42,483 nt of DNA from Roseobacter sp. Lineage in GTDB: Bacteria; Pseudomonadota; Alphaproteobacteria; Rhodobacterales; Rhodobacteraceae. The DNA lies in the NCBI RefSeq assembly GCF_024639605.1, contig NZ_JAHEHZ010000011.1, positions 1 through 42,483 of the forward strand, read 5' to 3'. Below the pieces are notes generated by a model, which was given only the letters and a program-made list of their open reading frames with translations, searched no databases and had not been told where the DNA came from. The position numbers and the translations under genes were made by a program. Positions 1-33,960 of the stretch are shown here, one piece after another. Numbering within the stretch: position 1 is the first letter of the stretch; each line of letters begins with the position of its first letter.

Positions 1-819
1 TTTCAGCGCCCGTTGGCAACGCCCCCCACTTGTGAAAATGCGCCCTGAGCGGTTTTGCCGCCGGGGGCCTTTGACGCTGCCGCTAAATTCCAGCATTTTG
101 TGCAGTTACACACGTTGCTGCGACACCGCAGACGACAGGATGAATGCCTCTCCGAGACGAGAGATAATGTTGCTGAGCGCAAAAATCCCGCTGTTAACGG
201 TCCCGGACAGCCCCCGACAGATACACCGGAGGCAAACGACTTATGCCTGCCTCTCATGCGCCCCCAGACGTGGTTTATCCGGATCCACCATTGCGACGAT
301 CGCGGGCCACGGGGGGCATTCCACCGGGATCGTGAATTTTCACATCGACAACACACAAAAACTCCATGCAGTAACCGTTGTGTGTTTCGCGAAGATGCAT
401 CACGTCAAATGGTTCTGCGAGTGCAGCAAGGCAGGTCTGAGTGCCGGCGAAAAGCCGCTGGCGATTGCGGATTCGCATTTTATTGCCATGATCTGCATCG
501 CCTGAAAGCTTGCAGTCCGGTATACTTTTTTCGGCGCGGATCGGCGCCGCGCCGTCTGCGGTGATTGATCGATACGACTGGCACACGCCGGTTCGCGCTG
601 CCGCTGCCGCATTGCAAGGATCCACAGAATGACGTAGGGTGCAGGTCGGTGGATGCACGCATCTCCGGCCGGTCCTCTGAAGTGTTACCTGACGGTCCTT
701 GCCTGACTGTTCTCATCTTTCCACGCATTGTGCCCCGCAAAGACACGCGCAGACCCGCACCTGTCCGGCGCCGGTCTTTGCCGGTCACTTTACAGCACCC
801 TGAGCCTTCACATCATGCC
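1..819. other. Region without a supportable gene
   Basis: This stretch has several overlapping open frames on both strands, the longest about 150 codons. None starts behind a Shine-Dalgarno sequence, none resembles a family I know, and their composition (many Arg, Cys, Pro and His in all frames) is typical of chance frames in GC-rich DNA. A perfect 7-bp inverted repeat with a 7-base loop lies at 533-553. Its T-run is on the wrong side for a plus-strand terminator, and the minus strand has an A-run instead. The YcaO gene ends at 820 and points into this region, so an unannotated short peptide gene here would be of interest, but I cannot identify one. Confidence 0.5.
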
Positions 820-2046
820 TTAAACGAGCAGTGGCAGTGCCGCCTGCCGCCCTGTCGCGCCTGCGGTGCCGGTCAGCGCCGGCAACAACGCGTCTGCCGA
901 TGGCAGGTTCAGGAACCGCGGTCGCTGTGAGACGAGCCCGGGTGCGATGATCCGCAAGGCGGGCGCCCCAAACTGCGCCCGCGTCATATCAAAAACAGCA
1001 AAAGTTCCGCCCCTTGCGGCACAGCAGTCTGACAGCCCGGCCGTTGTCCGCGGAACGTCCGCTGCCCCGTCGGGAGTGAACCGGGGATCGGCGCGGCTCA
1101 TTCCCGCGATCCAGGGTGTCAGCGGATGCTCCGGGCCATGATGCTGCGCCATGCGGATGCGGAATTCGCTGTCGGCCAGTTCCAGCGCCGCGGCAAGCGC
1201 TGCCGCGCGCAGGTCGGTGCGCGCTGCAAACCCGCAGGCGACGGCACCGCCATCCGGGGCACTGCTCACAGCTGCGACGCAATGCGGGGCCTGCGGTGCT
1301 GCAAGGAGCATCAGCGTTGTTTCGCGTTCACGCGCGCCGAACGCGCGCAACAGATCAGGCACTTCCTCCAGCAATGACAAAGGCAACGCCGCAGCGCGGA
1401 TGCCGCCCCACCACCAGCGACCGATGGCGTCACTCTCAAAGAGTTCCGCAAGGGCTGCGGCAACGGCTGCATCATGGTCCCTGCCCGATGCACAGCCTTC
1501 GCTTCCCGACGGGTTCAGGGCGCTTACGCCATCTCCACCGATCCACACCAGATCAGAGGGCGCGCACACCACGCGACCACTCAGCAGATCCACGCCTTCG
1601 TGCCACATCGCATCCCGGCCCGGCGCGCCCGGCCAGAGGTCCTCATCGCCCCAGCGCTCATTCCAGGACTTATGTGCGGCATACTGTGCCTGAGAAAACC
1701 GCAGAACCTCGGTGCGGTCGAGCCGGCCTCCCACAGGGGCCGCACGCCCGGTATCCGCATCCCCGTTGCGACAGCAGGATACCAGCTCGGCCGCCTCACC
1801 GAGGGCCCGCCGCAGCGCGTCCGCGCGGGTGAGCCCGCGACCTGATGCCACGCGCCCCGTGACCGGCAGAGCCGCCGCCGGAAAACCGGACAGCGCCATG
1901 GCCGCATCACCCGGAACCACCGCCACCAGATGCACCGGCAGATCGGGTGCCTCGAACCAGTGCGGCGTGAAAAGTGCCGCCATCCGCGCCAGATCAGAAC
2001 CAGGTGCCGTCATAAAACTGTTTTCAACCCAAGCGTTAAAAGGCAT
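820..2046 (-). CDS. YcaO-family protein (divergent)
   Basis: YcaO enzymes use ATP to activate backbone amides, forming azolines, amidines or thioamides in peptides or proteins; some have unknown roles. Seen here: a first motif at residues 68-90, containing GRGLTRADAL and then an ExxE pair (E84, E87), and a second at about 184-212, GCASGRDHDAAVAAALAELF followed by ESDA and WWW. These match the YcaO ATP/Mg site (GKG..., ExxE; AAGN...EA...ALxExxER), but the usual Asn of AGN is Arg (R189) and the usual Arg of ER is Ser (S205). The C-terminus lacks the PxPxP tail common in azoline-forming YcaOs. Length with this start is 408 residues. The ATG at 2046 is chosen because the TTG at 2091 would overlap the divergent cyclase; 2013 is also possible. 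No TfuA or E1-like partner is adjacent. The family is secure; the reaction is unknown. Confidence 0.85.
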   Translation of the reverse strand: MPFNAWVENSFMTAPGSDLARMAALFTPHWFEAPDLPVHLVAVVPGDAAMALSGFPAAALPVTGRVASGRGLTRADALRRALGEAAELVSCCRNGDADTGRAAPVGGRLDRTEVLRFSQAQYAAHKSWNERWGDEDLWPGAPGRDAMWHEGVDLLSGRVVCAPSDLVWIGGDGVSALNPSGSEGCASGRDHDAAVAAALAELFESDAIGRWWWGGIRAAALPLSLLEEVPDLLRAFGARERETTLMLLAAPQAPHCVAAVSSAPDGGAVACGFAARTDLRAAALAAALELADSEFRIRMAQHHGPEHPLTPWIAGMSRADPRFTPDGAADVPRTTAGLSDCCAARGGTFAVFDMTRAQFGAPALRIIAPGLVSQRPRFLNLPSADALLPALTGTAGATGRQAALPLLV

Positions 2047-2075
2047 AGTTTCCGCACCGCGCGACCGGAGGAATG

Positions 2076-4487
2076 ATGTCCCAGCGAGCAATCCTTTTTG
2101 CCGACCTTGCCGGTTTCAGCCGGCACATGCGCGAGAACGAACCCGCCACCGTCGCCTATATCGCCGCCCGCCTCACCGAGGCGCGCGATGCCGTCGAAGC
2201 GGTCGGCGGCGAGGTTGTGAAAACGACCGGGGATGGTTTTGTGGCCCATTTCGCCACTGTGCCTGCTGCTCTGACTTTTGCAATCAGCTTTCAGCGCGCA
2301 GAGCCTGACACGCCCGGTGTCCGGCACGGATTTCGCATCGGGGTGCACTTTGGCCCGGTGCATTTCGGCAATGCCGACATCTATGGACATGCCGTCAATA
2401 TCGCCGCACGGCTTGAGGGGATAGCGCCCCCGGGCGGCATCACCATCTCCGGTGCCGCGTTTCGCCGCGCCGAGACCTTTGCGCGCGATTTCAGCGGCCG
2501 CGGGCCGGTGGTGCTGCGCAATATAGGTGAGAACATCACCGCCTATGATTATTCACCCGGCCGCAACGAGCCGGCATCCCTGCCCGCCGATGTGACCGTG
2601 ATCGGCAGCCTGCACATTTCGTCGGAAGACGGTGCCCGGGTTGAGCTGCGCTCAGAGCGCGCGCGGATCCTGCTCGGTATTCTGGTGCTGGGCGGGCCGG
2701 ACCCGCAGCAGCGCACCCAATGCGCGGCCCTGATGGGCAATCCCGAAGATGCCGCGGGGCTCGAAGCGGCCCGGCGCACCCTGGCGCGGGCCTTCCGGCG
2801 CGCCGGGGCCGCCGGACTGCGGCTGCACGATGAAGGAACGATCGGCGTCGACCAGTCGATCGTGCGTGTTGATCTTTACGAGTTGCCCCGCGACGCCAGA
2901 TCGGGCGCGGTAGACCCGAAACTGGTGCGCGGGATCGACTGGGACGTGGAACTTGCGCCCGGACTGGGAGATCAGGGCGGCTCTCTCGCGGGCTGGGCCC
3001 GCGTGATGCGCGGACGCTGGCGTCGCGAGGCCGCCGGCGCGCTTGAGGTCTGTCTGAAACGGTTCCGCGCGGAAGAAGACGGCGCACGGGTGGCCGCTGA
3101 GGCGCTGCTGCTGATCGAGCCCGGCCATGAACCTGCCGCACGGGTGCTGATCCGGCACTATAACGCGCTCGGCAACCGCGCGATGGCCATGCAGGAATAC
3201 GAACGGTTGCGGGACTGGCTGACCGGTCGCTACGACATGGCGCCCTCGGCTGAGACCGAAGCACTGATCGCCGGGATCCGCGCAGGCGAAGCGGCTGATG
3301 CTCTCCCGCCCGGCAGTTTCACCGACACCCGCCGGCCCGATCTGCGTGTCGGTGCCTTTTCCGCCAGTGACAGCAATGCCGATCTGGCCGCCGGCCTGCG
3401 GTCTGATGTGGTGGCTGCGCTGTCACGGTTTCGCGAATGGTATGTTGCGGAATCTTCCGGGCGTGACGGCGGCGATTACCTTCTGACCGCGCGCGTCGGT
3501 GAACAGCACGCCACCTTTTCGTTCACCCGCACCAGTGATGGCGTTGTGCTGTGGCAGGAACGGCTCGCATCCGGCGCGGACTGGAAGCGGTCTCAGGAGC
3601 AGCTTGTCGCCCGCGTCGCCGCCCGTGCCGAAGTCTATGTCTCAGCCGACCGCGTGGCGCGGGCATTTGGCGGGACGGAATCCTCGCAGTTTGACGACTG
3701 GATGCGCGCCGAAGGGTTGCTGGCGCGCTGGGACCCGGATGCTGAAACCGAGGCAGCCGCCCTTCTGGAAAACCTTCTGGAACGCGATCCGGCCTTTGCG
3801 CCGGCTTACGCCAGCCTCGCCAGCATTTATAACGTGCGTCACATCGTACGCCCCGGACTGAACCGCAGCGACGAAGACACCCGCCGCGCGCTGGCAACCG
3901 CGGTGCGGGCCACTGAACTTGATCCGCTGGATGCCCGCGGGCAGCTGGCCTTTGCCTGGGCGTCAGCCATGGCAGGCCATTACGATCTGGGCACGGTGCA
4001 CCTCGATCTGGCGACAACCCTCAACCCTACCAGCTCACGTACAGTGATCTCAGCCGCAATGGGGTTTGCGTTTTTCGGGCGCGCAGAACGGGCGCGCGAT
4101 CTTTTTGAGAAAACAGCACGTACTGCTCCGGTTCTGGCCCGCTGGCAGTGGTGCTACGGCGTTCCGGTGCGGTTTTTCGCAGGTGATTATTCCGGCGCTG
4201 CGGATGCTGCCTTACAGGGGGGCGACGCCATCAAAGACAACTACGGCTGGCTCGCAGCAAGCTACGCAGCCCTTGAGGATCGCGATAATGCCGCGGCGGC
4301 ATTCGACACCCTGAGCGAAACGATCAAACCGTTCTGGGAGGGCTCTGTGCCCCTTGACGCGCTCAGCCTTGCGCGGTGGTTTATCAGCGCCTACCCCCTG
4401 CGGCGGCCCGAAGACACGGTCCGCCTTGCCAGCGCCATCGCCTTTGCCGCAGGGCTGGAGGTCTCCGCCCTTACCGGCAGCGCGTGA
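2076..4487 (+). CDS. Adenylate/guanylate cyclase with BTAD-like and TPR-like regions
   Basis: A predicted soluble class III nucleotide cyclase, 803 residues. Residues 1-165 are the catalytic domain: metal-binding D10 in ILFADLAGFS and D53 in VVKTTGDGF, the purine-selecting Lys K49, and the later DIYGHAVNIAARLE segment with the Asn and Arg used in catalysis. These residues favour ATP as substrate. Residues about 175-410 resemble the bacterial transcriptional activation domain found in SARP/AfsR regulators, but without a clear DNA-binding HTH. Residues about 415-530 look like the TolB-like region seen in such cyclases, and about 545-790 contain alanine-rich helical repeats of TPR type. GGAGG at 2067-2071 supports the ATG at 2076 rather than 2073. 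It starts 29 bp from the divergent YcaO gene and overlaps the convergent 169-residue gene by 17 bp. cAMP output is inferred from residues only. Confidence 0.88.
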   Translation: MSQRAILFADLAGFSRHMRENEPATVAYIAARLTEARDAVEAVGGEVVKTTGDGFVAHFATVPAALTFAISFQRAEPDTPGVRHGFRIGVHFGPVHFGNADIYGHAVNIAARLEGIAPPGGITISGAAFRRAETFARDFSGRGPVVLRNIGENITAYDYSPGRNEPASLPADVTVIGSLHISSEDGARVELRSERARILLGILVLGGPDPQQRTQCAALMGNPEDAAGLEAARRTLARAFRRAGAAGLRLHDEGTIGVDQSIVRVDLYELPRDARSGAVDPKLVRGIDWDVELAPGLGDQGGSLAGWARVMRGRWRREAAGALEVCLKRFRAEEDGARVAAEALLLIEPGHEPAARVLIRHYNALGNRAMAMQEYERLRDWLTGRYDMAPSAETEALIAGIRAGEAADALPPGSFTDTRRPDLRVGAFSASDSNADLAAGLRSDVVAALSRFREWYVAESSGRDGGDYLLTARVGEQHATFSFTRTSDGVVLWQERLASGADWKRSQEQLVARVAARAEVYVSADRVARAFGGTESSQFDDWMRAEGLLARWDPDAETEAAALLENLLERDPAFAPAYASLASIYNVRHIVRPGLNRSDEDTRRALATAVRATELDPLDARGQLAFAWASAMAGHYDLGTVHLDLATTLNPTSSRTVISAAMGFAFFGRAERARDLFEKTARTAPVLARWQWCYGVPVRFFAGDYSGAADAALQGGDAIKDNYGWLAASYAALEDRDNAAAAFDTLSETIKPFWEGSVPLDALSLARWFISAYPLRRPEDTVRLASAIAFAAGLEVSALTGSA

Positions 4488-4980
4488 AGGCAAAGCTCGC
4501 GATAAGATAGTCTTCAAGGCGTTTGCGGTTGGCGTCGCTCTGAGCGGCCAGAAAGTCCGCAACCAGGGCGATCGTATCAGGCACAACGGTTTGCGAGATA
4601 TAGTCATACGCAGAGGTCTGGGCATTCTGCTGAACCACGGCTGTCATCCGGAAGGTGTTGCCGTTTTTGTCGTCAATATCACCACGCAGCTCAAGCTTAT
4701 CATTCACCACATTGCCCGGATTGGCGAGCGTCTCAAGGGCATATTTGTTGCCCTGGCGTTCCAGAACCCTGAAATCATCGCCTGTGGTTGCCAGCACCGC
4801 ATGGCATTCAGTCGCCGGGTCGGCGAATTTATCAAGAATGCCCTGCACAAGATCTTCTGCATCATTTTTGTCCGCAACGCCGCCGGATCCCGCCCGGATA
4901 TCGCTGCCGGCCGAGATCATGCCCTCCCGGCGCGCGGCCGGGGTCATATCTGCTGTCTCAAAGAAAATAACGGATGGCAT
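4471..4980 (-). CDS. Unknown 169-residue protein downstream of heme peroxidase
   Basis: I do not recognise this protein. The start at 4980 is well supported by AAAGGA eight bases upstream; a longer frame to 5037 has no ribosome site and would overlap the peroxidase. The sequence is acidic, has no signal peptide or membrane segment, and has two cysteines: one mid-protein (TECHAVL) and one in the last three residues (TRCR end). Short glycine-rich and charged stretches alternate with predicted helices; the last 45 residues look helical. It lies 31 bp behind the heme peroxidase on the same strand, so the two are almost certainly co-transcribed, and its 3' end overlaps the convergent cyclase gene. 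A role as partner or substrate of the peroxidase, or of the nearby YcaO enzyme, is speculation based only on position. Confidence 0.8.
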   Translation of the reverse strand: MPSVIFFETADMTPAARREGMISAGSDIRAGSGGVADKNDAEDLVQGILDKFADPATECHAVLATTGDDFRVLERQGNKYALETLANPGNVVNDKLELRGDIDDKNGNTFRMTAVVQQNAQTSAYDYISQTVVPDTIALVADFLAAQSDANRKRLEDYLIASFAFTRCR

Positions 4981-5011
4981 AATGAGTGTCCTTTCTGATG
5001 TGTAATACAGT

Positions 5012-6559
5012 TCAGGGCGGAGGAGGCCCCGCGTCAAGTGTGGTCGAGACCCTGAGCAGGTCCGGCAGGGTCAGAATGCCCTGTGCAGGCACCGTGCCGC
5101 CCCGCGCCGCGCAGATTGCAGCATGCAGCGTCTCCGCGACAATCCGGCCGGCAAGCGGCCCAAGCCGCGCGCCACCGCTGAGAAACTGCGCCTCGCGCAG
5201 GGTATAAAACCACAATGGTGTGCGGTCGCAGAGCCGGTCGCCAGCCGCCCCGTCGGTGAGCGCGGCAGTGATGGCCGAGGGCTGGTCTGCGGCAATTTGT
5301 TCGGGCGTCAGCAGTGCACCGCTGAAAATGCCGGGATCTGCGTGCCAGAGCCCCTGTGCGGATGTCAGCCCCACAGACTGCCCGCGCGCCAGCGTCATTT
5401 GCGCAAGATTTGCCGGGCCCGGTTGCTCGCTCAGATGGCCCGGATCAAGCTGCCCCATCTCGTGATACAGAACCGGCGTTATCGGCGCCGCGACATTGTC
5501 CGCCGTCGCGGCATCGGAATCGTGCCAGTCCGCCTCCCAGCGGAAACTCAGAACCCGGTGCCCGTCATCATGCATTGCAAGGCTGGTTCCGTTGAACGTA
5601 TGCGCCAGCAGCTGCGGCATGAAATGGGGCGACGGACCGGTCCGCGACCAGGTGTAGCGGTCACGCACCATGGGGTGCCCGAACCGGTAGGCGGCAAAGG
5701 CAAATTCCGCAGGGATCAGCAGATGTCCCGGATCGGCAGTGCCGGGTGCAACAAGTCTGCGTCCGTTGGCCATGATGTCGGCAAGCGTGCCGGCATCGAT
5801 AATACGCGGCAGAAAATCATAAAGCGTAATCTGATGTACCGCATCGATAAGACCCTGTTTGGGATCAGGCACGCCGTCGCGGCACAGCCTGACATAATAG
5901 CGCAAAAGCGCCACGTGCAGCTGTGCCAGAAACAGGTTCGCATCCGAACGGGTGTCCGGGATCAGTGGCCTGCCACCGGTATCCCGTGGCAGGTCGAGAA
6001 AGCTGTCAAATGAACTGCGTGACGTGCGCCCGAGGGCCACGTCCTGTTCCACCAGTGCGCCGGTCTGCTGATACACGCCGGCCATGTGCTGCAGGTGTTC
6101 TGTCGGGGGCGGAAAAACCGTGTCGAGATCAAGTGCGGCAGTGTTCAGATTAAGCGGCGCACCAGGGTCTGAGACATTGCTCCGGCTGAGATCATGGCCG
6201 AGAAACTGAGCAAAATAAACATATGCCGAAGGCAGCGCGGGCTCTGCTGCGGGCCATGCCGGTCGCACCGAGGATACCATCGCAAGGGCTAAAGCCGCGA
6301 GCGGCCCGTCGCGGGTGTCCTGCTCGCGTGGTCCGAGCCGGCTGTAGCCGGCAACCTGCCCCCCGCCTCCGGCCCCTTCGCGGTTTTCCAGATCAGCCTG
6401 AAGCCCCCCCGGACCGGGCCCGACCGGTACATCTGCAAGAAGTGCACGTCCGGTGCCGAACAGCGTGGCGGAATAGGCACCGGCATCATCAGGGCCTGCG
6501 GTATCGGCCACAAGCTTCAGCCCGCCTCCGTGCATGTGAGCGCAAACGCTTTTGCTCAT
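5012..6559 (-). CDS. Animal-type heme peroxidase family protein
   Basis: Member of the peroxidase-cyclooxygenase (An_peroxidase) superfamily, heme enzymes that use hydrogen peroxide to oxidise halides, phenols or other substrates. Seen in its 515 residues: the distal-heme motif YFAQFLGHDLS with the distal His; the arginine motif PDTRSDANLFLAQLHVALL, equivalent to DTRSSEM...LHTLLLREHNR of mammalian enzymes; and the proximal-His motif AYRFGHPMVRDRY. The residue that would form the heme ester (Glu of DTRSSEM) is Ala, and the Asn that normally contacts the proximal His in the NxxRGR-type helix appears as Thr (QMTLARGQSVGL). No signal peptide is visible, so it may be cytoplasmic or exported by another route. 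It precedes the 169-residue protein by 31 bp and follows the M20 peptidase gene by 57 bp on the same strand, with no terminator between them. Family assignment is firm; substrate unknown. Confidence 0.9.
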   Translation of the reverse strand: MSKSVCAHMHGGGLKLVADTAGPDDAGAYSATLFGTGRALLADVPVGPGPGGLQADLENREGAGGGGQVAGYSRLGPREQDTRDGPLAALALAMVSSVRPAWPAAEPALPSAYVYFAQFLGHDLSRSNVSDPGAPLNLNTAALDLDTVFPPPTEHLQHMAGVYQQTGALVEQDVALGRTSRSSFDSFLDLPRDTGGRPLIPDTRSDANLFLAQLHVALLRYYVRLCRDGVPDPKQGLIDAVHQITLYDFLPRIIDAGTLADIMANGRRLVAPGTADPGHLLIPAEFAFAAYRFGHPMVRDRYTWSRTGPSPHFMPQLLAHTFNGTSLAMHDDGHRVLSFRWEADWHDSDAATADNVAAPITPVLYHEMGQLDPGHLSEQPGPANLAQMTLARGQSVGLTSAQGLWHADPGIFSGALLTPEQIAADQPSAITAALTDGAAGDRLCDRTPLWFYTLREAQFLSGGARLGPLAGRIVAETLHAAICAARGGTVPAQGILTLPDLLRVSTTLDAGPPPP

Positions 6560-6616
6560 TCCCGTTTTCCGTGCATCTTCATCTCACTGAAAGATAACAC
6601 GAAAGTGCCCGGTCTG

Positions 6617-8053
6617 TCAGCCCGCAGTGCCGCAGGCCCCGGTGCGCGGCAGACCCGCGTCCGCAGCACCGATATCCCAGAACAGACCCGTCATAATCTG
6701 CAGCCCCTCGCGACAGATGCTCGCGCGCATATGCTCGTCAGGTGCGTGCTGGCTGCAGCCGCGCCATGAATGCGGGATCCATACGGTCGGCATTCCGAGA
6801 ATTTCGGTGAACACGTGGTTCGGCAGCGATCCTGCAAGATTGGGCAGCAGATGCGGCCGCTTCAGGGTGGTATTCTGCACAGACGCGCAGACAAATTTCG
6901 TCCAGGGATGGTCCGGCGCCAGCCGTGTGGCGGGGAAATGCCCCCCCTGGTGCGGGCGGATTTCAACCCGGCCCAGACCGCGCGCGTCCAGTATCGCTCT
7001 GAGAGCGGGAAGCAGTGCTGCGGTATCTGTGCCGGTCACAAAGCGCAGCTGGCATGTGGCGCGGGCCGTGCCGGAGATTGCGTTGACAGGAGCCTCAGGC
7101 AGGCCACTGGTCATGGCGAGCACCGCAAAGCTGTTCCATCCATAGGCGCGCTCGGCCATGCTCAGATCAGGCGCGCCCCAGTCCTCATCCGGTTCCGGCC
7201 CGTCGCCGCCTGTCACCGGCAGATCGCGCAGCGCCGCGCGCACGTCGGGCGTAAGGCTGTCGGGCCGCCATTCAGGGATCAGCAGATCTCCGCGGGCGTC
7301 GGTGATCAGCGCCAGCGCCTGAGCGATGAGCATGGCAGGATCCGCCAGCAGGCCGCCCCAGTTGCCCGAATGGTGCGCCCCGTCGCGCAGATCCGCCACC
7401 AGATCAAAGGTGACCGCGCCGCGCGATCCGGTGAAAACGGTGGGTGTGTCCGGCTGCAGGCGCGGCCCGTCCGAGGCGATCAGTACATCTGCCGACAGAC
7501 GGTCTTTCATCGCACTGAAAAATTCCGCGAGACCCGCCGAACCGGTCTCCTCGCTCATCTCGATGATAATCCGGCTGTTGAACCCCAGATGTCCCCGCCC
7601 GGCGATCACCTGCTCCAGCGCTATTATATTGATCAGATGCTGGCCCTTGTTGTCCGCCGTGCCGCGCCCGTAGATCTCTTCGCCGTCAACGCTCACCACA
7701 AAGGGCTCAAGGCCCGCGCGCCACTGCCCCTCCTGGCCGTGGATGACATCGCCGTGACCATAGGTCAGAACCGTCGGCAGCCCGTCGCCTTCATGCCGTT
7801 CCGCAACAAGAAACGGTCCGCCACGCGGATCAGGGTTCGGGAAAATCCCGCAGGAATAGCCCGCCGCCTCCAGGCGCGGCATTATCGCCTCCGTGAGGTA
7901 AGCTTGCAGAACCTCTGCACGCGCCGGGTTCTGGCTTTCGGTCGGATAGGCCACAAGCGCCGCCAGATCCCGCACAAACCGCCCGTCATCAAAGAAAGCT
8001 GCAGCTGCAGTAACGGCAGCGTCCCGCGACGATCTGGCCCCGGGCCCCGTCAC
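6617..8053 (-). CDS. M20-family metallopeptidase / amidohydrolase
   Basis: Zinc-dependent exo- or dipeptidase of the M20/ArgE/DapE group, 478 residues, about the usual length for M20 dipeptidases. Metal and catalytic motifs are intact: TYGHGDVIHG (first zinc His and Asp), IYGRGTADNKGQ (bridging Asp), EMSEETGS (catalytic Glu pair), and a C-terminal CSQHAPDEHM that supplies the last His. The dimerisation lid lies between, roughly residues 200-320. The start is a GTG whose last two bases overlap the TGA of the upstream lyase gene (GTGA), so translation is coupled. The context of a lyase and a dehydrogenase in the same operon suggests hydrolysis of an N-acyl or peptide-like intermediate. The substrate cannot be read from sequence. 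Confidence 0.92.
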   Translation of the reverse strand: MTGPGARSSRDAAVTAAAAFFDDGRFVRDLAALVAYPTESQNPARAEVLQAYLTEAIMPRLEAAGYSCGIFPNPDPRGGPFLVAERHEGDGLPTVLTYGHGDVIHGQEGQWRAGLEPFVVSVDGEEIYGRGTADNKGQHLINIIALEQVIAGRGHLGFNSRIIIEMSEETGSAGLAEFFSAMKDRLSADVLIASDGPRLQPDTPTVFTGSRGAVTFDLVADLRDGAHHSGNWGGLLADPAMLIAQALALITDARGDLLIPEWRPDSLTPDVRAALRDLPVTGGDGPEPDEDWGAPDLSMAERAYGWNSFAVLAMTSGLPEAPVNAISGTARATCQLRFVTGTDTAALLPALRAILDARGLGRVEIRPHQGGHFPATRLAPDHPWTKFVCASVQNTTLKRPHLLPNLAGSLPNHVFTEILGMPTVWIPHSWRGCSQHAPDEHMRASICREGLQIMTGLFWDIGAADAGLPRTGACGTAG

Positions 8054-8967
8054 AGACCAAGAGCCTCCAGCCGCACGGCCTGACGGGCGGCGAGTGCATC
8101 AATCTCCTGCATCGCATCCCGGCTCAGCCCGGCACCCGGTTTGCGCACCACCGGATGCGCGATAAACCCGCGTTTTGCCAGCGAATACTTGCGGATTGCG
8201 AGACCAAGCCCCGGCTGCGCCTCATAGCGGATCATCGGCATGTAGGCGTCGAATATGTCCCGCGCACGGTCGGTATCCCCGGCCGCGCAGGCCGCTGTGA
8301 CCTGTGCCATCATCTCCGGATACGCAAAACCGGTCATGGCCCCATCCGCCCCGCGCAACATCTCTTCGAGCAGGTACATCCCGCCATTGCCGCACAGAAT
8401 GGAAATGCGCCTGTCGCCGGCCTCGCTGGCGCGGCGAAGGGCGGTGATCTTTTCCAGCCCCGGCCAGTCCTCGTGTTTCAGCATGACGCAGGTGGGACAA
8501 TCCTTAACAATCTGCAGAATAACCCGCACCGGGATCTGCACACCGGTCGCAAGCGGAAAGTCCTGCAGCACGAACGGCGTGTCGCCCAGCGTTTCAGCCA
8601 CATTCTGGTAATACGCAAGGATCTGCTCATCCGTGCGCAAATATGATGGCGGGGCCACCATCACGCCTGCAGCACCTGCCTGCATCGAGGTATCGGCCAG
8701 TGCCTTCATCGCAGCAAACCCGGGAGCCGAGACGCCGACCACGACCGGCACATCTGCCCGGCCGGTCACCCGGCGCACAATCGCTTCGGATTCCGCCGCC
8801 GAGAGCTTGCCGGCCTCGCCCATCATGCCCAGGATTGTCAGCCCGGTTGCCCCCAGACGCAGATAAGCATCGGTCAGACTGTCGATACTGTCGAAGTCAA
8901 CGGCCCCGTCCGGCACAAACGGCGTGGCCGCGATGGTGAACACGCCACGCGCGGTCTCGTCAAGCAT
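8050..8967 (-). CDS. DapA-superfamily (DHDPS/NAL-like) lyase
   Basis: Class I aldolase-fold enzyme of the dihydrodipicolinate synthase / N-acetylneuraminate lyase superfamily, 305 residues. The Schiff-base lysine is K164 in VMLKHEDWPG, and the N-terminal binding loop is GMMGEAGKLS. In true DapA this loop is GTTGE, with a catalytic Thr, and the segment before the lysine is YNVP, with a catalytic Tyr. Here they are GMMGE and QDFP, so both helper residues are missing. This argues against lysine biosynthesis and for a catabolic aldolase or dehydratase of a keto acid or hydroxy amino acid. It sits between the SAF dehydrogenase (54-bp gap) and the M20 peptidase (4-base overlap). Superfamily certain, reaction unknown. 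Confidence 0.9.
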   Translation of the reverse strand: MLDETARGVFTIAATPFVPDGAVDFDSIDSLTDAYLRLGATGLTILGMMGEAGKLSAAESEAIVRRVTGRADVPVVVGVSAPGFAAMKALADTSMQAGAAGVMVAPPSYLRTDEQILAYYQNVAETLGDTPFVLQDFPLATGVQIPVRVILQIVKDCPTCVMLKHEDWPGLEKITALRRASEAGDRRISILCGNGGMYLLEEMLRGADGAMTGFAYPEMMAQVTAACAAGDTDRARDIFDAYMPMIRYEAQPGLGLAIRKYSLAKRGFIAHPVVRKPGAGLSRDAMQEIDALAARQAVRLEALGL

Positions 8968-9021
8968 CGGCCAGCCTTCCCGATGGCGCAGAGGGACGGA
9001 TCACTGTCTTCTGCCCCCCGA

Positions 9022-10311
9022 TCATGACGCAACAAGGCTCCGATAGAGTTCAGTCACCGCATCCTCTGCAAGGTCTGCATCGCTGAGCTTCAGGGTCTCG
9101 CCGGCGGCAATATCGCGCGTCACCTTCACCCCGTGCGCGAGCCCGACGGGCAACGCATCGCGCGCTGCAGCGACCGGCTGTGCCTTCCCCCAGACAGTAA
9201 AGCCGCCTTCGCCATCCAGCATTTCACCTGCTTTCAGATCGCGTTTGGCCACAGAGGCGACCGTCCCCCGCATCTCGCGCGATGTGCCGGTGGGCTCGCG
9301 GCGCAAAGCCGCACTCAGCACGGACACCGACAATTCCATGCCAATCAGATGAAAGGGTTTATACATGGCAGCAAACCGGCCGGTGTCATCCACCGGCAGC
9401 CCGTACTGGTGAAAACAGGCGGCAGAATAGGCATTCGGGGCCTCGAGCACCACGTAAACGCCCCATCTCAGATCGCGGAAAACAGGCCGGCCATCGCGTT
9501 CCACGGAGGAAATCGTCTCCACCATTTCCGGTCCCTCAAGCTGCCCGCCGACATCACGCGGGCGCAGCACCCGGGCAAGATCATCGACACCGCAGGGCGG
9601 AAAAGCCAGCCCGTTCTGCGGCACATTGAGCCCGCAGGCATTGGCGATCGCGACCATCTCGATGGCGCTCTTGGTTCCGTCGAGAAAGGAGTTGAACATC
9701 TGCGGGTTCATACCGGCGCGCGCTGCCTCTTCGGGTGTCAGGCCGTAATGCGACCAGACATCATCAGGGGTGACACTGTGATAAGCCGGCAGATATTTGG
9801 TCCCCTTGCCGGCGGCGGCCACGCGGAACCCCGTGGCCCGGGCCCAGTCCACCATCTCAGAAACCAGCGCCGGCTGGTCACCGTAAGCCATGGAATAGAC
9901 CACGCCGGCCTCACGCGCCTCTGCGGCCAGCGCCGGACCGACCAGAACATCAGCTTCGACGTTGACCATGACCACATGCCGGCCTGCGGCGATGGCTGCA
10001 CGTGCATGGCGGATGCCGGCCAGCGGATTGCCGGTCGCTTCGATCACCACATCCACACCATCTGCAGCGACGGCCTGCGCGCCGCTGTCGGTGAACTGTG
10101 TGGCCGCGATGCGCGCATCATCCCAGCCCACCGCCCGACAGGCAGCACGCGCCCGGTCGGGATCAAGATCCGCGATAACGGCCACGTCCAGCCCTGCGAT
10201 TGTCGGCACCTGGCTGAGGAACATTGATCCGAATTTTCCTGCCCCGATCAGGGCGGCGCGGACCGGAGTGCCGCGTTCACCGGCGTCGCGCGCCAGGCTG
10301 CTGAGATTCAT
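9022..10311 (-). CDS. Homoserine-dehydrogenase-like NAD(P) oxidoreductase with C-terminal SAF domain
   Basis: 429 residues. The N-terminal Rossmann fold begins AALIGAGKFGSMFLSQ with an acidic residue at the end of the second strand (VIADLDPDRAR), favouring NAD. The central part resembles the homoserine-dehydrogenase / Gfo-like catalytic domain (AGKGTKYLPAYH, then FLDGTKSAIEM). The last 80 residues contain a SAF-type fold (AKRDLKAGEML and TRDIAAGETL). Proteins of this layout are widespread beside sugar-acid or amino-acid degradation genes, but I do not know a proven reaction for this one. It is the first gene of the minus-strand operon, and the 164-bp gap to the divergent glutathione transferase must carry its promoter. 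Confidence 0.87.
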   Translation of the reverse strand: MNLSSLARDAGERGTPVRAALIGAGKFGSMFLSQVPTIAGLDVAVIADLDPDRARAACRAVGWDDARIAATQFTDSGAQAVAADGVDVVIEATGNPLAGIRHARAAIAAGRHVVMVNVEADVLVGPALAAEAREAGVVYSMAYGDQPALVSEMVDWARATGFRVAAAGKGTKYLPAYHSVTPDDVWSHYGLTPEEAARAGMNPQMFNSFLDGTKSAIEMVAIANACGLNVPQNGLAFPPCGVDDLARVLRPRDVGGQLEGPEMVETISSVERDGRPVFRDLRWGVYVVLEAPNAYSAACFHQYGLPVDDTGRFAAMYKPFHLIGMELSVSVLSAALRREPTGTSREMRGTVASVAKRDLKAGEMLDGEGGFTVWGKAQPVAAARDALPVGLAHGVKVTRDIAAGETLKLSDADLAEDAVTELYRSLVAS

Positions 10312-10427
10312 GATGCTCTCCCTTTTTCACGCAAGCTTAGCGCCGGCGACGGGGCGGCGCCAGATCAGACAACAGACCTGTGGTTGAGCCCCGCGCCTGT
10401 GCGAGATAAACCGCCTTTGATGCCGCT

Positions 10428-10465
10428 GCCCGGATCCGCCGGGCGCTGCTGCCCGGATCCGGAGG
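10428..10465 (+). promoter_or_regulatory. Mutually exclusive hairpins next to the GST ribosome site
   Basis: A 14-base direct repeat (GCTGCCCGGATCCG, at 10425-10438 and 10448-10461) surrounds CCGGGC at 10439-10444. That central element can pair with GCCCGG at 10428-10433 (loop 5) or with GCCCGG at 10451-10456 (loop 6), but not both. The second hairpin ends five bases before the GGAGGT ribosome site (10461-10466) that serves the TTG start at 10476. Pairing is seen in sequence; any regulatory role is inference and needs a transcript that includes this leader. Confidence 0.3.
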
Positions 10466-10475
10466 TTTTTGCCCG

Positions 10476-11126
10476 TTGTCGCCTGTCCTGTGGTCATTCC
10501 GTCGTTGCCCCTATGCAATGCGCGCACGCCTGGCTCTCGAGGTGTCGGGGGTAAGGGTTCATCTGCGCGAGGTCGTTCTGCAGGACAAACCGGCGGCTTT
10601 CCTGCGCGCTTCGCCGGGGGCTACCGTGCCCTGCCTGCAAACAGACACCGGAGTGATTGATGAGAGCCTCGACATCATGATCTGGGCGCTGCGGCAGAAC
10701 GATCCCGAAGGATGGCTCCACATGCCGCCCGAAGGATTTGCCCTGATCAAATACGCCGACGGTCCGTTCAAAGAAGCGCTTGACCGCACCAAATATGAAA
10801 CCCGCTATCCCGGATCGGATCCGGAAGCGGCCCGGCAGGTGGCCTCGGAGTTTCTTCAGAAACTGGATGCTCAGACTGACGACTGGCTCTTCGGGCGGCC
10901 GTCGCTGGCGGATTTCGCGATCCTGCCATTCGTCCGGCAGTTTGCCTTCATCGACAAAGCGCGTTTCGATGCCGGGCCCTGGCCCCGTCTGCAGGGCTGG
11001 CTCGCCTCGTTTCTCGCGTCACAAAAATTTGCAGCCGTCATGCACAGGTATCCCCGATGGCAGGACGGTATGACGGGCGATTTGTTTCCGGATCCGGCAA
11101 CAATATCCGGCACCGGCCGGCATTAA
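10476..11126 (+). CDS. Glutathione S-transferase family protein
   Basis: 216 residues with a thioredoxin-like N-terminal domain carrying an RRCPYAMRARLAL motif. The Cys-Pro-Tyr-Ala active site is of glutaredoxin type, as in Cys-type GSTs that act as thiol transferases or dehydroascorbate/disulfide reductases. The cis-proline is in GATVPCLQTD and the glutathione gamma-Glu contact is IDESLDIMIWAL. The C-terminal helical domain (about 85-200) has the typical SLADFAILPFVRQFA segment with the N-capping Asp. The TTG start at 10476 is supported by GGAGGT nine bases upstream. It stands alone, divergent from the dehydrogenase operon; substrate unknown. Confidence 0.9.
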   Translation: MSPVLWSFRRCPYAMRARLALEVSGVRVHLREVVLQDKPAAFLRASPGATVPCLQTDTGVIDESLDIMIWALRQNDPEGWLHMPPEGFALIKYADGPFKEALDRTKYETRYPGSDPEAARQVASEFLQKLDAQTDDWLFGRPSLADFAILPFVRQFAFIDKARFDAGPWPRLQGWLASFLASQKFAAVMHRYPRWQDGMTGDLFPDPATISGTGRH

Positions 11127-22034: not shown

Positions 22035-23072
22035 TTATTCAAAGTTATAGGGCGCACCGGCCTGGTTGATGACGCTGTTATATTCTTTGAAGATGTTGAC
22101 GATCTTCTGGTGCACTTCACCTTCCTGCGCCACTTCTTCCCAGAAAGCTTTGGCCGCATTCTCGACCTCGGCCCACTCTCCGGCGGGTACTGAACGCAAT
22201 TGCAGCTTGTCGCCATTAGCGCGCAGTGCAGCCTCACCACCCCAGTACCACTGATTGCGATATGTGTGTCCCGCTTCGGTTGCCGCCATCACGACCGATT
22301 TCAGATGATCCGGCAGGTCCGCCCAGCGTTCCTGGTTCACAAACCAGGATCCGATCCAGGCACCGGAGATGTTGTTGGTCAGGAAATAGTCCGTCACATC
22401 CGCCCAGCCCACGGTGTAATCTTCGGTGATGCCCGACCATGCCATACCGTCGAGTTCACCGGTCTGCACTGCGACCTCGGCATCCTCATAGGGAATGTTC
22501 ACCGGGACCACGCCGAACTGTGCGAGGAAGCGACCCGCCGTCGGGAATGTATAAAGCTTCAGACCATCAAGATCCGCCACGCTGGTGATCTCTTTTTTGG
22601 TGTTGAAGTTACAGGGATCCTGTCCTGCCGCCGAAAGCCATTTGACGCCGACCTTTGCGTATTCCTCTTCCCAGATGTCCTTCAGACCGTACTGGTTAAA
22701 GAGCACAGGCACGTCAAGTATGTGTTTGGTTGCAAAGGGAAAATAGCCACCGAACTGGCGCAAAGGCGTGGGCGAGGCCATTGAGTCGTCATCCGAGTGA
22801 ACGCCGTCAAGGGTGCCACGCTGCAGCGCCTGGAAAAGCTCTCCGGTGGGCACGATCTGGTCGGCATAGAAAAGCTCTACCTCAAGCTCGCCGTTGGCAT
22901 TGGCGTTGATGTAATCGATCACCGGCTTGGTGACGTGCTCTCCCAGCGCGCTGCCGGCATATGTCTGGAAACGCCATTTGATTGCCGTTTGCGCTTTGAC
23001 GATTGCGGGACTGGCAAGCGTGGCAGCGGCACCGACACCTGCTGTGGTCAGAAACTTACGTCTGGTTGTCAT
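22035..23072 (-). CDS. dctP: TRAP transporter solute-binding protein (DctP family)
   Basis: Periplasmic receptor of a tripartite ATP-independent transporter, 345 residues. The N-terminus TTRRKFLTTAGVGAAATL ending in IVKAQT is a twin-arginine type signal. The body has the DctP fold, with LFQALQRGTLDGVHSDDDS and AEVAVQTGELDGMAWSG as characteristic TRAP segments; the conserved binding Arg cannot be placed confidently. The ATG at 23072 has AGAGGAAAG seven bases upstream; a frame to 23117 has no such site. It is the last gene of the operon after the large membrane subunit. The presence of an N-formylglutamate amidohydrolase-like gene upstream suggests an acylated amino acid or other organic acid as ligand, but that is inference. 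The symbol denotes the component, not a dicarboxylate substrate. Confidence 0.93.
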   Translation of the reverse strand: MTTRRKFLTTAGVGAAATLASPAIVKAQTAIKWRFQTYAGSALGEHVTKPVIDYINANANGELEVELFYADQIVPTGELFQALQRGTLDGVHSDDDSMASPTPLRQFGGYFPFATKHILDVPVLFNQYGLKDIWEEEYAKVGVKWLSAAGQDPCNFNTKKEITSVADLDGLKLYTFPTAGRFLAQFGVVPVNIPYEDAEVAVQTGELDGMAWSGITEDYTVGWADVTDYFLTNNISGAWIGSWFVNQERWADLPDHLKSVVMAATEAGHTYRNQWYWGGEAALRANGDKLQLRSVPAGEWAEVENAAKAFWEEVAQEGEVHQKIVNIFKEYNSVINQAGAPYNFE

Positions 23073-23135
23073 GGGTCTTTCCTCTCTGTTGAAGGTCTTG
23101 TGAATTGCGTCCCGCATACCGGGATCTTTTTGTCT

Positions 23136-24461
23136 TTAATTTCCGTACACATACCCCGGCAGCCAAAGGGCGATTTCGGGGAAGGCCATGATTGTGGCGA
23201 GGGCCACAACCATCACCAGCACAAAAGGCAGGATTGAAGAATAGATGTCTTTCAGCGTTATCTCAGGCGGTGCCATCGCGCGCATCAGAAACAGGTTATA
23301 GCCAAACGGCGGTGTCATATATGCAATCTGTGTGGTGATCGTGTAAAGCACACCATACCATATCAGATCAAAGCCGAGCGCGCCCACCAGCGGCACATAC
23401 AGCGGTGCGACAATTACCAGCATCGCCGTATCATCGAGAAAAGTGCCCATAAGGATAAAGCTGAGCTGCATCAGGATAAGGATCGTCCAGGGGCTGAGAC
23501 CGAATTTCTCGGTAAACAGGCTCTCAATCGCTTTGACGGCACCCAGCCCGTCAAAAACCGCGCCAAAGGCCAGAGCCGCCAGGATGATCCACATGAACAT
23601 GCACGAGATGCCAAGGGTCTTGCGCACGCTTGTCTCGAAGACGTCATAGGTCATCCGGCCTTTGAGCACGGCAGCCAGGAAGGCCGCGATCGCGCCGATG
23701 GCCGAGCTTTCCACCAGCGATGTCCAGCCGTTCACAAAAGGCACCATCATCGAAAAGAAGATAAAGAGCGGCAGCACGCCCGCCCCCAGCAGCCTGATTT
23801 TCTGTGCCATCGGCATGTCACGGTCCTCAGGCGGCAGCACGGGTCCGAGTGCCGGATTGAGGCGGCAACGGATCACGATATAGATCACGAACATCGCGGC
23901 CATCATCAGACCCGGCAGCACCCCGGCAAGCCAGAGCTGTCCCACCGGCTGACGCGCGATCATCGCATAAAGCACCAGCACCACAGAGGGCGGCACAAGG
24001 ATGCCGAGCGATGATCCCGCCTGAATAACACCGGTCACCATGCGTTTGTCATAGCCGCGTTTGAGAAGCTCCGGCAGCGCAATCGTGGCTCCGATCGCCA
24101 TGCCGGCAACCGACAGACCGTTCATCGCGGAGATCAGCACCATCAGCCCGATGGTGCCCACCGCAAGCCCGCCCGACAGCCCGCCCATCCAGACGTGGAA
24201 CATTTTGTAAAGATCATCCGCAATCCGGGATTCCGACAGGATATAGCCCATGAAAATGAACATCGGCAGCGTCAGCAGCGGATACCATTTCATCAGCTTG
24301 ATCGCGGCGGCAAATCCCAGATCATAGCCCCCCCGGTCACCCCAGAGAAAGAACGCCGCCACCACAGCGACAAATCCGATGGCGCCGAAAACACGCTGCC
24401 CGGTCAGCAGCATCAGCATCATCGAAGAGAACATGAGGATCGCGATGGCCTCATAGGACAT
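23136..24461 (-). CDS. dctM: TRAP transporter large permease (DctM family)
   Basis: 441 residues with about twelve hydrophobic segments from EAIAILMFSSMMLMLLTGQR to VMVVALATIMAFPEIALWLP, matching the sodium-coupled DctM subunit. Family hallmarks include the MFIFMGYILSES region near residue 65, SAMNGLSVAGMAIGATIALP and GVIQAGSSLGILVPPSVVLV, and late TPPFGYNLFLMRAM. Its ATG shares one base with the TGA of DctQ (TGATG), so the two are translationally coupled; DctP follows after a 63-bp gap. Length is normal. Confidence 0.95.
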   Translation of the reverse strand: MSYEAIAILMFSSMMLMLLTGQRVFGAIGFVAVVAAFFLWGDRGGYDLGFAAAIKLMKWYPLLTLPMFIFMGYILSESRIADDLYKMFHVWMGGLSGGLAVGTIGLMVLISAMNGLSVAGMAIGATIALPELLKRGYDKRMVTGVIQAGSSLGILVPPSVVLVLYAMIARQPVGQLWLAGVLPGLMMAAMFVIYIVIRCRLNPALGPVLPPEDRDMPMAQKIRLLGAGVLPLFIFFSMMVPFVNGWTSLVESSAIGAIAAFLAAVLKGRMTYDVFETSVRKTLGISCMFMWIILAALAFGAVFDGLGAVKAIESLFTEKFGLSPWTILILMQLSFILMGTFLDDTAMLVIVAPLYVPLVGALGFDLIWYGVLYTITTQIAYMTPPFGYNLFLMRAMAPPEITLKDIYSSILPFVLVMVVALATIMAFPEIALWLPGYVYGN

Positions 24462-24982
24462 CAGATCTTCTCCCCCATGTCGTAGCCTTTGAGGCGCAGT
24501 ATGTCCTTGAAGAACTCGGAGAACGCCTGCAGCAACATCAGGAATATCCCCACAAGCATGATCGCCTTAACCGGCCAGAGATACGGGCGCCAGACTGAAG
24601 AGCTTCGCTCTCCGCCGTAGCTGATCGAATACTGAAAACTTTCCCAGCCGCCCCAGAGCAGAAAGATCAGATAGACAATCAGAAACACAATGGTCATCGC
24701 GTCGACCTGAGCCTTGCGGTGATCCGACCACTCGCCATAAAGCAGGTCCATCCGCACGTTTGCCCCCATCTGTATCGAGTAAGGCCCGCCCAGCATATAA
24801 TAGGCGACCATGGCGAACTGCGCGACTTCCAGCGTCCAGAGTGACGGATCAAAGAAGGTTTTGCTGACAGACGACCAGAGCAGGATCGCCATCATCACAA
24901 AGATCCCGTACATCACCACGCGCCCGATGCGATAGTTCAGCCCGTCGATTATCCGGGTGTATCGCATCGCGAAATTCAGCAT
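24461..24982 (-). CDS. dctQ: TRAP transporter small permease (DctQ family)
   Basis: 173 residues with four hydrophobic segments, the normal DctQ topology: VVMYGIFVMMAILLWSSVSK, then a second around AQFAMVAYYMLGGPYSIQMG, a third at MTIVFLIVYLIFLLWGGWES and a fourth at LWPVKAIMLVGIFLMLLQAF. The PYSIQMGANVRMDLLY stretch is typical of the family. It overlaps the amidohydrolase stop by seven bases and the DctM start by one, making this a single operon. An internal ATG at 24967 could also serve as start; neither has a strong ribosome site, consistent with coupling. Confidence 0.93.
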   Translation of the reverse strand: MLNFAMRYTRIIDGLNYRIGRVVMYGIFVMMAILLWSSVSKTFFDPSLWTLEVAQFAMVAYYMLGGPYSIQMGANVRMDLLYGEWSDHRKAQVDAMTIVFLIVYLIFLLWGGWESFQYSISYGGERSSSVWRPYLWPVKAIMLVGIFLMLLQAFSEFFKDILRLKGYDMGEKI

Positions 24983-25734
24983 ATGGCGGCACCGGCAGGT
25001 GTCAGGGCGCGTCTGATCCAGCCCGACAAAAGATCCGCCATCGCGGCCTGATCGCGCTCGTTTCCGATCAGATCGTTGCGCACTTCGAGCATCACGTTCA
25101 GGTGTCCGGGTCCGAGTGCGTGTTCTTTCAGTGTATGGGTCACACCATCCGCAGGCCCGTAAGGCTCATTTCGCCGCACGACACAGGCCCCCGGCGCATC
25201 TAACAACAGCGCATCCGCCAGACGGGTATCTTTGTCATGCAGAACGCCGATTTCGACATCCCTGTTCTGCCCGTGATACACAGGCGTGAAACTGTGCACC
25301 GTCACAAGCACAGGGTCAGACACGCGGGCCAGCACCTCAGACAGAGCAGCACGGAAAGGTTCATAGTATGTCGCCACCCGATCCGCTTTCTGCGCCGTGC
25401 TAAGGCCTTTGTTGCCCGGCACGTCCACAATCTCGCTGCGTTCCGGCATCGCACCCGCCGCGTCGGGCGGCCGGTTACAGTCATAGATCAGGCGCGAGAT
25501 GCGCGAGGCCACGAGCACCGCATCAAGCTGCCGCGACATGCCCCGGGCCACCGACACTGCGCCCGGATCCCAGGCGACGTGACTGTGCAGGGCATCCCCG
25601 CTCAGACCCAGATCGTCAAATTCGGCCGGAATATGCGCGCTGGCATGCTCGCAGACGAGTACGACAGGCGACGTTGCCTTTGCATTATACACCTCAACCA
25701 CGGCGTCGTCGGATAGGCGTTCCGGATGATTCAT
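24976..25734 (-). CDS. N-formylglutamate amidohydrolase family protein
   Basis: 252 residues of the FGase family, zinc enzymes that release formate from N-formylglutamate or act on related N-acyl amino acids. Supporting features: VVLVCEHASAHIPAEF near the N-terminus with the EHAS motif, HSHVAWDPGAVSVARGMS, the CNRPPDAA segment and VTVHSFTPVYHGQNR. The start at 25734 has GGAG five bases upstream; the longer frame would run into the divergent regulator's leader. It is the first gene of the TRAP operon, so it probably acts on what the transporter brings in. There are no other histidine-degradation genes nearby, so a hutG role is not supported. Confidence 0.9.
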   Translation of the reverse strand: MNHPERLSDDAVVEVYNAKATSPVVLVCEHASAHIPAEFDDLGLSGDALHSHVAWDPGAVSVARGMSRQLDAVLVASRISRLIYDCNRPPDAAGAMPERSEIVDVPGNKGLSTAQKADRVATYYEPFRAALSEVLARVSDPVLVTVHSFTPVYHGQNRDVEIGVLHDKDTRLADALLLDAPGACVVRRNEPYGPADGVTHTLKEHALGPGHLNVMLEVRNDLIGNERDQAAMADLLSGWIRRALTPAGAAIC

Positions 25735-25854
25735 TGCTGCTCCCACCCCGGAAAGGTCTTGCCAGGCGGGCATTCTGTCAACACAATTATGAAATATTTA
25801 TCACAGGCCGCTTTAACCTGTTATTTTATCGCTCAACGACGAGGCATCTCCCCG
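25735..25854. promoter_or_regulatory. Divergent promoter region, amidohydrolase-TRAP operon / RpiR
   Basis: These 120 bases separate two divergent starts. The plus strand contains an unusually AT-rich stretch at about 25780-25810, with AAATATTT inside TGAAATATTTATCA, an imperfect palindrome of the size an RpiR dimer could use. On the minus strand TTGACA (rc of 25776-25781) makes a plausible -35. I could not place a good -10, so the exact promoters are unresolved. Confidence 0.4.
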
Positions 25855-26727: not shown

Positions 26728-26961
26728 ACCGGCAGGTAACACCGCGCACCTGAGGCCGACGGTGATACGGTGTGGAGTTCAGGATCTCAGACAGGCGGCC
26801 CCGACGCCATGACGCCGGACAGCGATCCACAATGCCTTTCTGACGATGGATCCATGAAAACGCCAAACAGGGCACGCACTCCACGAGACCATCGCGTTCG
26901 TGAGAAGGTTTCCGGGTCGGATTGTCCGCGTCGCTTTCCCCCGGCAATCATTAGCGACGTC

Positions 26962-29857: not shown

Positions 29858-29868
29858 CGCCCGTGCCT

Positions 29869-30729: not shown

Positions 30730-30738
30730 CGCGCGCCT

Positions 30739-32698: not shown

Positions 32699-32728
32699 TG
32701 CGCCTGCTCCCCTGCACCCCGTCGTGAC

Positions 32729-32764
32729 ACAAAAGGGGCGGCGTGTCACCGACATCGCCGCCCC
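32729..32764 (-). terminator. Strong hairpin between binding-protein and ATPase genes
   Basis: On the minus strand GGGGCGGCG (32756-32764) pairs perfectly with CGCCGCCCC (32735-32743), and the loop can extend the stem with TGTC/GACA (one bulged base). TTTTGT follows at 32729-32734. It is 18 bp past the binding-protein stop. Such intercistronic terminators or RNA-stabilising hairpins typically keep the receptor mRNA more abundant than the rest of an ABC operon. Confidence 0.75.
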
Positions 32765-32781
32765 CCGTGCATTTACTTAAC

Positions 32782-33858: not shown

Positions 33859-33930
33859 GGTTTAACTCCCTTATCAGCGCCGGTTCGCGCTGCGTGGCAT
33901 TCATGGACACCGGGCGATGTTAGTAGAGTA

Positions 33931-33960
33931 TTGGACTGGCCCACATATCCATTATGGAAT
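33931..33960. promoter_or_regulatory. Candidate MocR operator in front of the PotD-like gene
   Basis: TTGGACTG at 33931-33938 is followed by a second TGGA element at 33955-33958, about two helical turns away (23 bp between the two TGGA starts). The same TTGGACTG plus spaced TGGA arrangement occurs between the MocR regulator and the enolase-family gene at 35480-35508. MocR proteins bind spaced direct repeats, so this is a plausible binding site; that it is one is inference. Confidence 0.4.

Follow-up and report, generated by a model that had tools for sequence, protein, structure and literature searches.

What joins a YcaO-domain enzyme, a class III cyclase, a small protein of no recognised family and an animal-type heme peroxidase within 5.7 kb of a Roseobacter genome, and on what substrate could they act together? 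The four genes lie on contig NZ_JAHEHZ010000011.1 of Roseobacter sp. (C235 in our numbering), whose entire length of 42,483 bases is referred to here as the window. A sequence-only reading of this DNA had proposed a peptide or protein modification system with an oxidative step and cyclic AMP (cAMP)-linked control, and all four genes or domains that it listed were found again in the same place. They belong to a recurrent module in which the genetic linkage, the catalytic residues and a Cys near the C-terminus of the small protein (hereafter the partner) are conserved. From these sequence features we consider it probable that the module is a self-contained cassette, whose YcaO enzyme and peroxidase would act one after the other to modify a C-terminal Cys on a folded carrier. 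The genome of the window comprises 3.67 Mb in 260 contigs and is 90% complete, so that absences there are soft; gene calls were made with our own open reading frame (ORF) script, and start codons are unsure.

Genomic linkage of the four genes

With the window YcaO as query, relatives were found in 11 of 198 genomes of the same family. All eight short enzymes among them (290-423 aa, the window's included) adjoin a peroxidase and a regulator gene, and the other three (700-804 aa), which resemble YcaOs of thiazole/oxazole-modified microcin (TOMM) pathways, have no such peroxidase within the 12-20 kb around them. Peroxidase relatives occur in 31 of the 198 genomes, and relatives of the partner in two (single-sequence search) or four (profile search); among the 20 peroxidase loci listed, five are module loci and 15 are without an adjoining YcaO. 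A scan of 84,980 species genomes, made with the YcaO sequence alone and with YcaOs already known to be linked as queries, gave 302 pattern matches and 19 confirmed loci, three of which repeat loci known from the family search. YcaO, regulator and partner stand together at 18 of the 19 and the peroxidase joins them at 17, the exceptions being L055 (Mesorhizobium M2E) and L070, on a 5.6 kb Archangium contig (loci carry L numbers throughout).

A class-wide profile search matched YcaO in 50 of 385 genomes, and five of 16 regions from these matches, picked by score and length rather than at random, contain YcaO together with peroxidase and regulator. The cassette is rare: the partner profile matches a single genome of the 385, the window's own. 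The YcaOs of Variovorax and of two of the three Burkholderia listed (745-774 aa) have no peroxidase within 17-21 kb. Among plasmids, the window YcaO retrieved one record with a full module, from a paddy-soil Rhodobacteraceae strain (124 kb, L072), and a Rhizobiaceae partner used as query retrieved none. In viral contigs no YcaO relative was found (86 pattern matches, none confirmed).

Counting each once, 29 distinct YcaO modules were collected, which span 5.15-7.08 kb and show ten gene orders, at one locus (L059) with all four genes co-directional. The sequence-only reading had looked to gene neighbourhoods for support, in the form of at least three of the genes kept together across diverse genera; 28 of the 29 modules hold all four parts (counting a fusion at L040, and taking as regulator a protein with a cyclase and/or a BTAD domain), and YcaO and peroxidase, far from meeting in this strain alone, are paired across many genera. 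The hosts are Rhodobacterales, Hyphomicrobiales and other Alphaproteobacteria from soil and sea, with record titles naming Ruegeria, Shimia, Seohaeicola, Pseudodonghicola, Sulfitobacter, Cypionkella, Mesorhizobium, Pararhizobium and Flavimaribacter. Linkage that is kept through this much reshuffling is hard to attribute to shared ancestry alone. A comparison of 24 loci (23 modules and L070) gave no fifth gene shared by all of them. The commonest extra cluster, named via the window's ABC gene, consists of ABC-transporter ATPases, present within 10 kb at 10 of the 24 loci and accompanied by transporter-like genes at four to five.

Two further loci were recorded. At L037 (Pseudodonghicola flavimaris, identical to L061) a gene that looks by eye like a transposase or integrase lies at 9478-10461, between partner and regulator. 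On a plasmid of Sinorhizobium mexicanum (L076, 5607-8987) a 415-aa YcaO adjoins a 622-aa protein that the regulator profile recognises (E 6.8e-40), and the profiles for peroxidase and partner found nothing within 16.5 kb.

In the window itself (Table 1) YcaO and regulator are divergent, with 26 bp between their starts, regulator and partner converge with ends overlapping by 17 bp, and the peroxidase lies directly upstream of the partner, in tandem and co-directional, across a gap of 31 bp. These distances nearly match the 17 to 31 bp noted earlier, and the locus is as compact as described. A shared transcription unit does not stand: the strands, which the earlier reading left unmentioned, run -,+,-,-, so the four genes are not one transcription unit and an operon across the whole 5.7 kb is ruled out. 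Beyond YcaO 819 bp are visible before the contig ends, and a further gene there is possible in this strain.

Table 1. Coordinates of the module features in the window
Feature	Position	Strand	Evidence
YcaO-domain enzyme, 408 aa	820..2046	-	PF02624, 114 bits (cut-off 25.7)
Regulator, 804 aa	2073..4487	+	PF00211, 42.6 bits (cut-off 21.9); BTAD, 25.8 bits (cut-off 22.1)
Partner protein, 169 aa, proposed substrate/carrier	4471..4980	-	20-member alignment; AlphaFold2 model
C-terminal R-C-R tripeptide, proposed modification site Cys168	4474..4482	-	Tail Cys in 32/32 partners
Animal-type heme peroxidase, 515 aa, proposed oxidising enzyme	5012..6559	-	PF03098, 27.6 bits (cut-off 25)

The same strand as the peroxidase carries, at 6617-10311, genes for an M20 peptidase, a dihydrodipicolinate-synthase-like protein and a DRL/SAF oxidoreductase, which have no relatives at the other loci compared. 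Further along (22035-35460, minus strand) there are genes for a TRAP solute-binding protein, DAO and GMC flavoenzymes, ABC transporter subunits and a GntR/aminotransferase regulator, which look like an ordinary uptake and oxidation cluster.

The partner and its near-terminal cysteine

The window partner matches no Pfam, NCBIfam or PADLOC family. Twenty proteins of its type (the main type) could be aligned; they share 16-26% identity with the window member and only G20, Y127, R167 and C168 are invariant, so that all 20 end in Arg-Cys-x. At nine modules the main profile missed the partner, yet a protein in the neighbourhood has a Cys in the penultimate place or one residue to either side of it. 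Their tails read IAQCG (L117), VANCA (L122), SHCGP (L119), RQCL (L039), LMCK (L041), RHCR (L038), CASC (L116), CAAC (L118) and AQCK (L040), the last belonging to a Cys-tailed domain fused to the C-terminus of the peroxidase. In total, 32 partners were assembled, from the 29 modules, two peroxidase-partner pairs (L047, L127) and L124. Every one of them has a Cys within its last three residues, and in 28 it is penultimate, against 21 and 9 respectively of 421 other gene calls at the same loci (about 5% for the last three residues). For L038 and L124 the choice of partner was made knowing how the protein ends; when these two are left out the counts are 30/30 and 27/30, and the set includes near-copies (for example L063, L064 and L067).

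By profile comparison no relation was detected between the main family, a family formed by L117, L122, L119 and L040, and a group of L116, L118 and L124 (best probability 0.6%), the latter two profiles having just four and three rows; L038, L039 and L041 were placed in no family. In the family of L117 the tail R-x-x-D-Y-T-x-x-x-C stands out. The recurrence of a tail Cys in three families without detectable relation supports the proposed cassette, and its conservation makes the partner the likely substrate.

An AlphaFold2 model of the window partner (mean predicted local distance difference test score 86.9, predicted template modelling score 0.84) suggests an alpha+beta fold, ordered beta-alpha-alpha-beta4-alpha-alpha, with the Cys tail predicted to follow the last helix (residues 149-164). 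Compared with a library of viral folds, the model gave no match at E 0.001 or less.

The enzymes and the regulator

The YcaO glutamates E84, E87, E201 and E289 are kept in all eight aligned members and E204 in seven of them; we take these to be residues of the ATP/Mg site. The nearest solved relatives are TruD, LynD and MusD, followed by methanogen and other YcaOs. The enzyme is apparently stand-alone, as no TOMM partner gene was seen nearby. Thioamidation of the TfuA-dependent type was set aside: TfuA (PF07812) has no match in the window's genome, 90% complete as it is, and a control genome was positive, which makes thioamidation less likely. In a tree of the YcaOs, L116 and L118 group with TOMM-like enzymes; two changes are needed, and one origin is still possible. 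At L124 (positions 1-3211, contig C49) a YcaO cut by the contig end adjoins a 96-aa protein ending in CGCAD and a cyclase-TPR protein, and no peroxidase was found in 10,000 of the 11,915 contig bases. This locus may represent a peroxidase-free cousin of the cassette.

The peroxidase scores above the family cut-off (Table 1), and Q118, H122, R292 and H295 are kept in 20 of 20 aligned members. H122 and H295 presumably correspond to the distal and proximal His of myeloperoxidase-type enzymes. Lactoperoxidase, myeloperoxidase and peroxinectin A are its solved relatives, and no signal peptide is evident by eye in the window protein. Peroxidase and partner genes are adjacent and co-directional in 24 of the 28 peroxidase-bearing modules and fused in a 25th (L040). 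A script that examined the next gene behind the peroxidase found a tail Cys at 24 of the 30 loci with a module or a pair; the six exceptions are the L040 fusion, L065 and L068, where the overlap exceeded the script's limit and the partner was found by profile, and L038, L116 and L118, where the partner lies beside YcaO, away from the peroxidase. By the longest downstream ORF, none of the 15 peroxidases without an adjoining YcaO has a Cys-tailed partner. These controls are every YcaO-less locus among the 20 listed; five have no ORF in reach, one (L045) lies on a 5.1 kb contig, and at L030 a secondary, overlapping ORF ends in Cys-Gly-Leu.

A quickly built tree groups the peroxidases of main-type modules, together with those of the two extra pairs, in one clade of 18 apart from the unlinked enzymes (97 in the SH-like approximate likelihood ratio test); the peroxidases of L116/L118 and L038 fall among the unlinked group. 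Its supported branches call for two or more changes of label, so the association of YcaO and peroxidase seems to have arisen more than once, several branches being long. The extra pairs lie at L047 (8733-10901), in the window's own genome near the end of contig C171, with the tail RCR, and at L127 (9448-11616), in Pararhizobium ih9, with the tail RCA. Neither has a local YcaO; both genomes carry a YcaO module elsewhere, and it is possible that these partners are substrates modified in trans.

The remaining protein of the module combines a class III cyclase domain (residues 6-154), a BTAD domain resembling that of transcription activators (307-403) and a C-terminal part in which relatives have TPR. 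Its cyclase domain scores well above the model cut-off (Table 1) and has the catalytic residues: both metal-binding aspartates are present in 13 of 13 cyclase-bearing regulators, the Lys in 12 and the adenine-binding Asp in 11. Pfam reports BTAD in all four regulators of the main kind that were scanned (the window's, L038, L041 and L117) and TPR in the three relatives. The more distant regulator of L116 has cyclase and TPR, with no match to BTAD, and weakly matches NCBIfam TIGR04510 and TIGR03903, both of whose model names place cyclases in peptide modification. Its domain type suggests that this fourth protein is the cassette's own regulator. The cyclase domain is missing in four of 17 aligned regulators, with the rest of the protein aligning throughout, so cAMP-linked control is not a general trait of the module. 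The sequence-only reading is limited on that point; the modification system as such gains from the linkage and from a Cys-tailed likely substrate.

Proposed modification, rival explanations and known systems

As we infer the reactions, the order of the steps and the role of the product, the regulator would switch the cassette on and the partner would act as a folded carrier, its body serving recognition and its short C-terminal tail, -Arg-Cys-Arg, presenting the conserved Cys. YcaO, using ATP, would activate the backbone amide that precedes the tail Cys and, to judge from YcaO chemistry, would most likely close the Cys onto that amide to give a thiazoline. The peroxidase may then oxidise the modified tail, or the free one, for example from thiazoline to thiazole, and would fill the role that a flavin dehydrogenase has in classical TOMM pathways. 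Besides the linkage and the tail Cys, this proposal draws on the L040 fusion, the two extra pairs in genomes with a YcaO module, the lack of a Cys-tailed partner behind unlinked peroxidases, the main-type clade, the want of a shared fifth gene and the kept catalytic residues. The presence of a heme peroxidase and a C-terminal Cys carrier gives a credible chance that this is a new class of YcaO-dependent modification. More tentatively, and short of favouring it, we suggest that in such a class a peroxidase and a stand-alone YcaO turn a near-terminal Cys into an oxidised heterocycle or another protein-derived cofactor, the body of the substrate being interchangeable (three sequence-unrelated families, plus L038, L039 and L041).

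Several observations weigh against the proposed successive modification. We know of no YcaO substrate with a Cys beside the free C-terminus. The tail Cys is the sole Cys in only nine of the 20 main-type partners (the window protein has two, one of them in the tail) and, in partners not of the main type, it follows differing residues (Q, H, M, N); a disulfide or a metal role for the tail Cys also fits. At L055 YcaO, regulator and partner are present in a genome where the peroxidase profile finds nothing, so a peroxidase is no absolute requirement; this argues that YcaO may act on the partner by itself, with the reaction of the peroxidase as an added step. At the peroxidase's place in this locus (4765-9969), co-directional with the partner, is a gene for a 631-aa protein that looks exported by eye and carries the c-type heme motif CNGCH, possibly a case of one heme protein swapped for another. 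Finally, no protease or transporter is common to all of the 24 loci compared and ABC genes are near only some of them, which gives little support to the release of a peptide product.

The pairing of peroxidase and partner is the tightest in the module, so the Cys could serve the peroxidase directly. The partner would then be a peroxidase subunit or an electron or thiol partner whose tail Cys reduces or ligates the enzyme, and YcaO would modify the peroxidase or something else. Their adjacency, the L040 fusion and the pairs without YcaO at L047 and L127 all speak for such an arrangement, but the Cys-tailed partner persists beside YcaO and regulator at L055, adjoins YcaO instead of the peroxidase at L038, L116 and L118, and at L124 accompanies YcaO with no peroxidase over the bases covered; we regard this arrangement as unlikely. 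A pathway for ribosomally synthesised and post-translationally modified peptides (RiPPs), in which the tail would be cleaved from a body that is merely a leader and released as a small diffusible product, would suit an enzyme type typical of RiPPs and the ABC-ATPase genes found at some loci. By eye, moreover, the partners of L116 and L118 (136-176 aa) resemble precursors with nitrile-hydratase-like leader peptides (NHLP), and that of L124 has a sub-threshold NHLP match (E 0.065, 13.1 vs 50.9 bits). Set against this are the want of a protease or transporter shared by the 24 loci, a conserved tail of only one to three residues, and the failure of L116, L118 and the 20 main-type partners to match NHLP, and we find the RiPP explanation rather improbable.

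Still further from our expectation, and very improbable, is a module for anti-phage or stress signalling, with the cyclase producing a nucleotide signal as in Pycsar. The PADLOC PycC model recognises the cyclase domain (E 2.6e-11) and the distribution is patchy, with one copy on the plasmid of L072; however, the match is limited to the generic class III cyclase domain, the regulators that have no cyclase tell against a signalling role, and no other PADLOC family occurs among the four genes, so that the pairing of cyclase and effector that defines such systems is not seen.

Successive modification of the partner's tail, the explanation that we retain, has to be set beside known YcaO systems. 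With TOMM pathways (SagD/LynD/TruD-type YcaOs) the cassette shares the YcaO domain and its best solved relatives, but the window YcaO reaches 75.1 bits with the SagD-family model TIGR03604, where the cut-off is 219.25. No E1-like/Ocin-ThiF partner (RiPP recognition element, RRE) was found among the eight window proteins of 820-11126, and none is common to the 24 loci. The cassette also differs from TOMM pathways in having no common flavin dehydrogenase or protease gene, in the added heme peroxidase, and in the proposed substrate, a tail-Cys protein of about 96-240 aa instead of a short core rich in Cys, Ser or Thr. There is precedent for a stand-alone YcaO that takes a folded protein as its substrate: according to PMC13063428, the Escherichia coli YcaO thioamidates Met82 of ribosomal protein uL16, a folded substrate, without an RRE. 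This enzyme and the YcaO of the cassette would both be stand-alone, act without TfuA and take a folded protein in place of a leader peptide; they differ in that uL16 is a housekeeping protein modified at Met82, whereas the partner is dedicated, fast-diverging and equipped with a C-terminal Cys and a peroxidase. Structured NHLP precursors are described as bound by YcaO in the accessible text of PMC12455567, and a large structured precursor recognised by an azoline-forming YcaO is a likeness drawn from the accessible text of PMC2887384 and PMC12455567. The window partner was rejected as an NHLP, since it has no match and TIGR03793 matches none of the 20 main-type partners.

The peroxidase has the PF03098 domain and heme-pocket residues of other bacterial animal-type heme peroxidases, and differs from them in its linkage to YcaO and a dedicated Cys-tailed partner and, for the main type, in forming its own clade. 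The word "peroxidase" does not occur in the accessible text of PMC2887384 and PMC4603692, and the peroxidase of PMC8776678 is, from the part available, an unrelated Dyp-type enzyme in an encapsulin cluster. The sequence-only reading knew of no described system joining all four genes; our searches of the open-licence PMC literature likewise gave no description of YcaO, heme peroxidase and Cys-tailed partner in combination, which leaves absence from print unproven.

If the proposal is right, animal-type heme peroxidases would join the enzymes that tailor ribosomal peptides and proteins, and those of bacteria would gain a physiological substrate. Two enzymes, one small substrate and one candidate residue would also offer an unusually compact test bed for the recognition of folded proteins by a YcaO, and a near-terminal Cys beside YcaO and peroxidase genes would become a genome-mining handle for proteins now annotated as "hypothetical".

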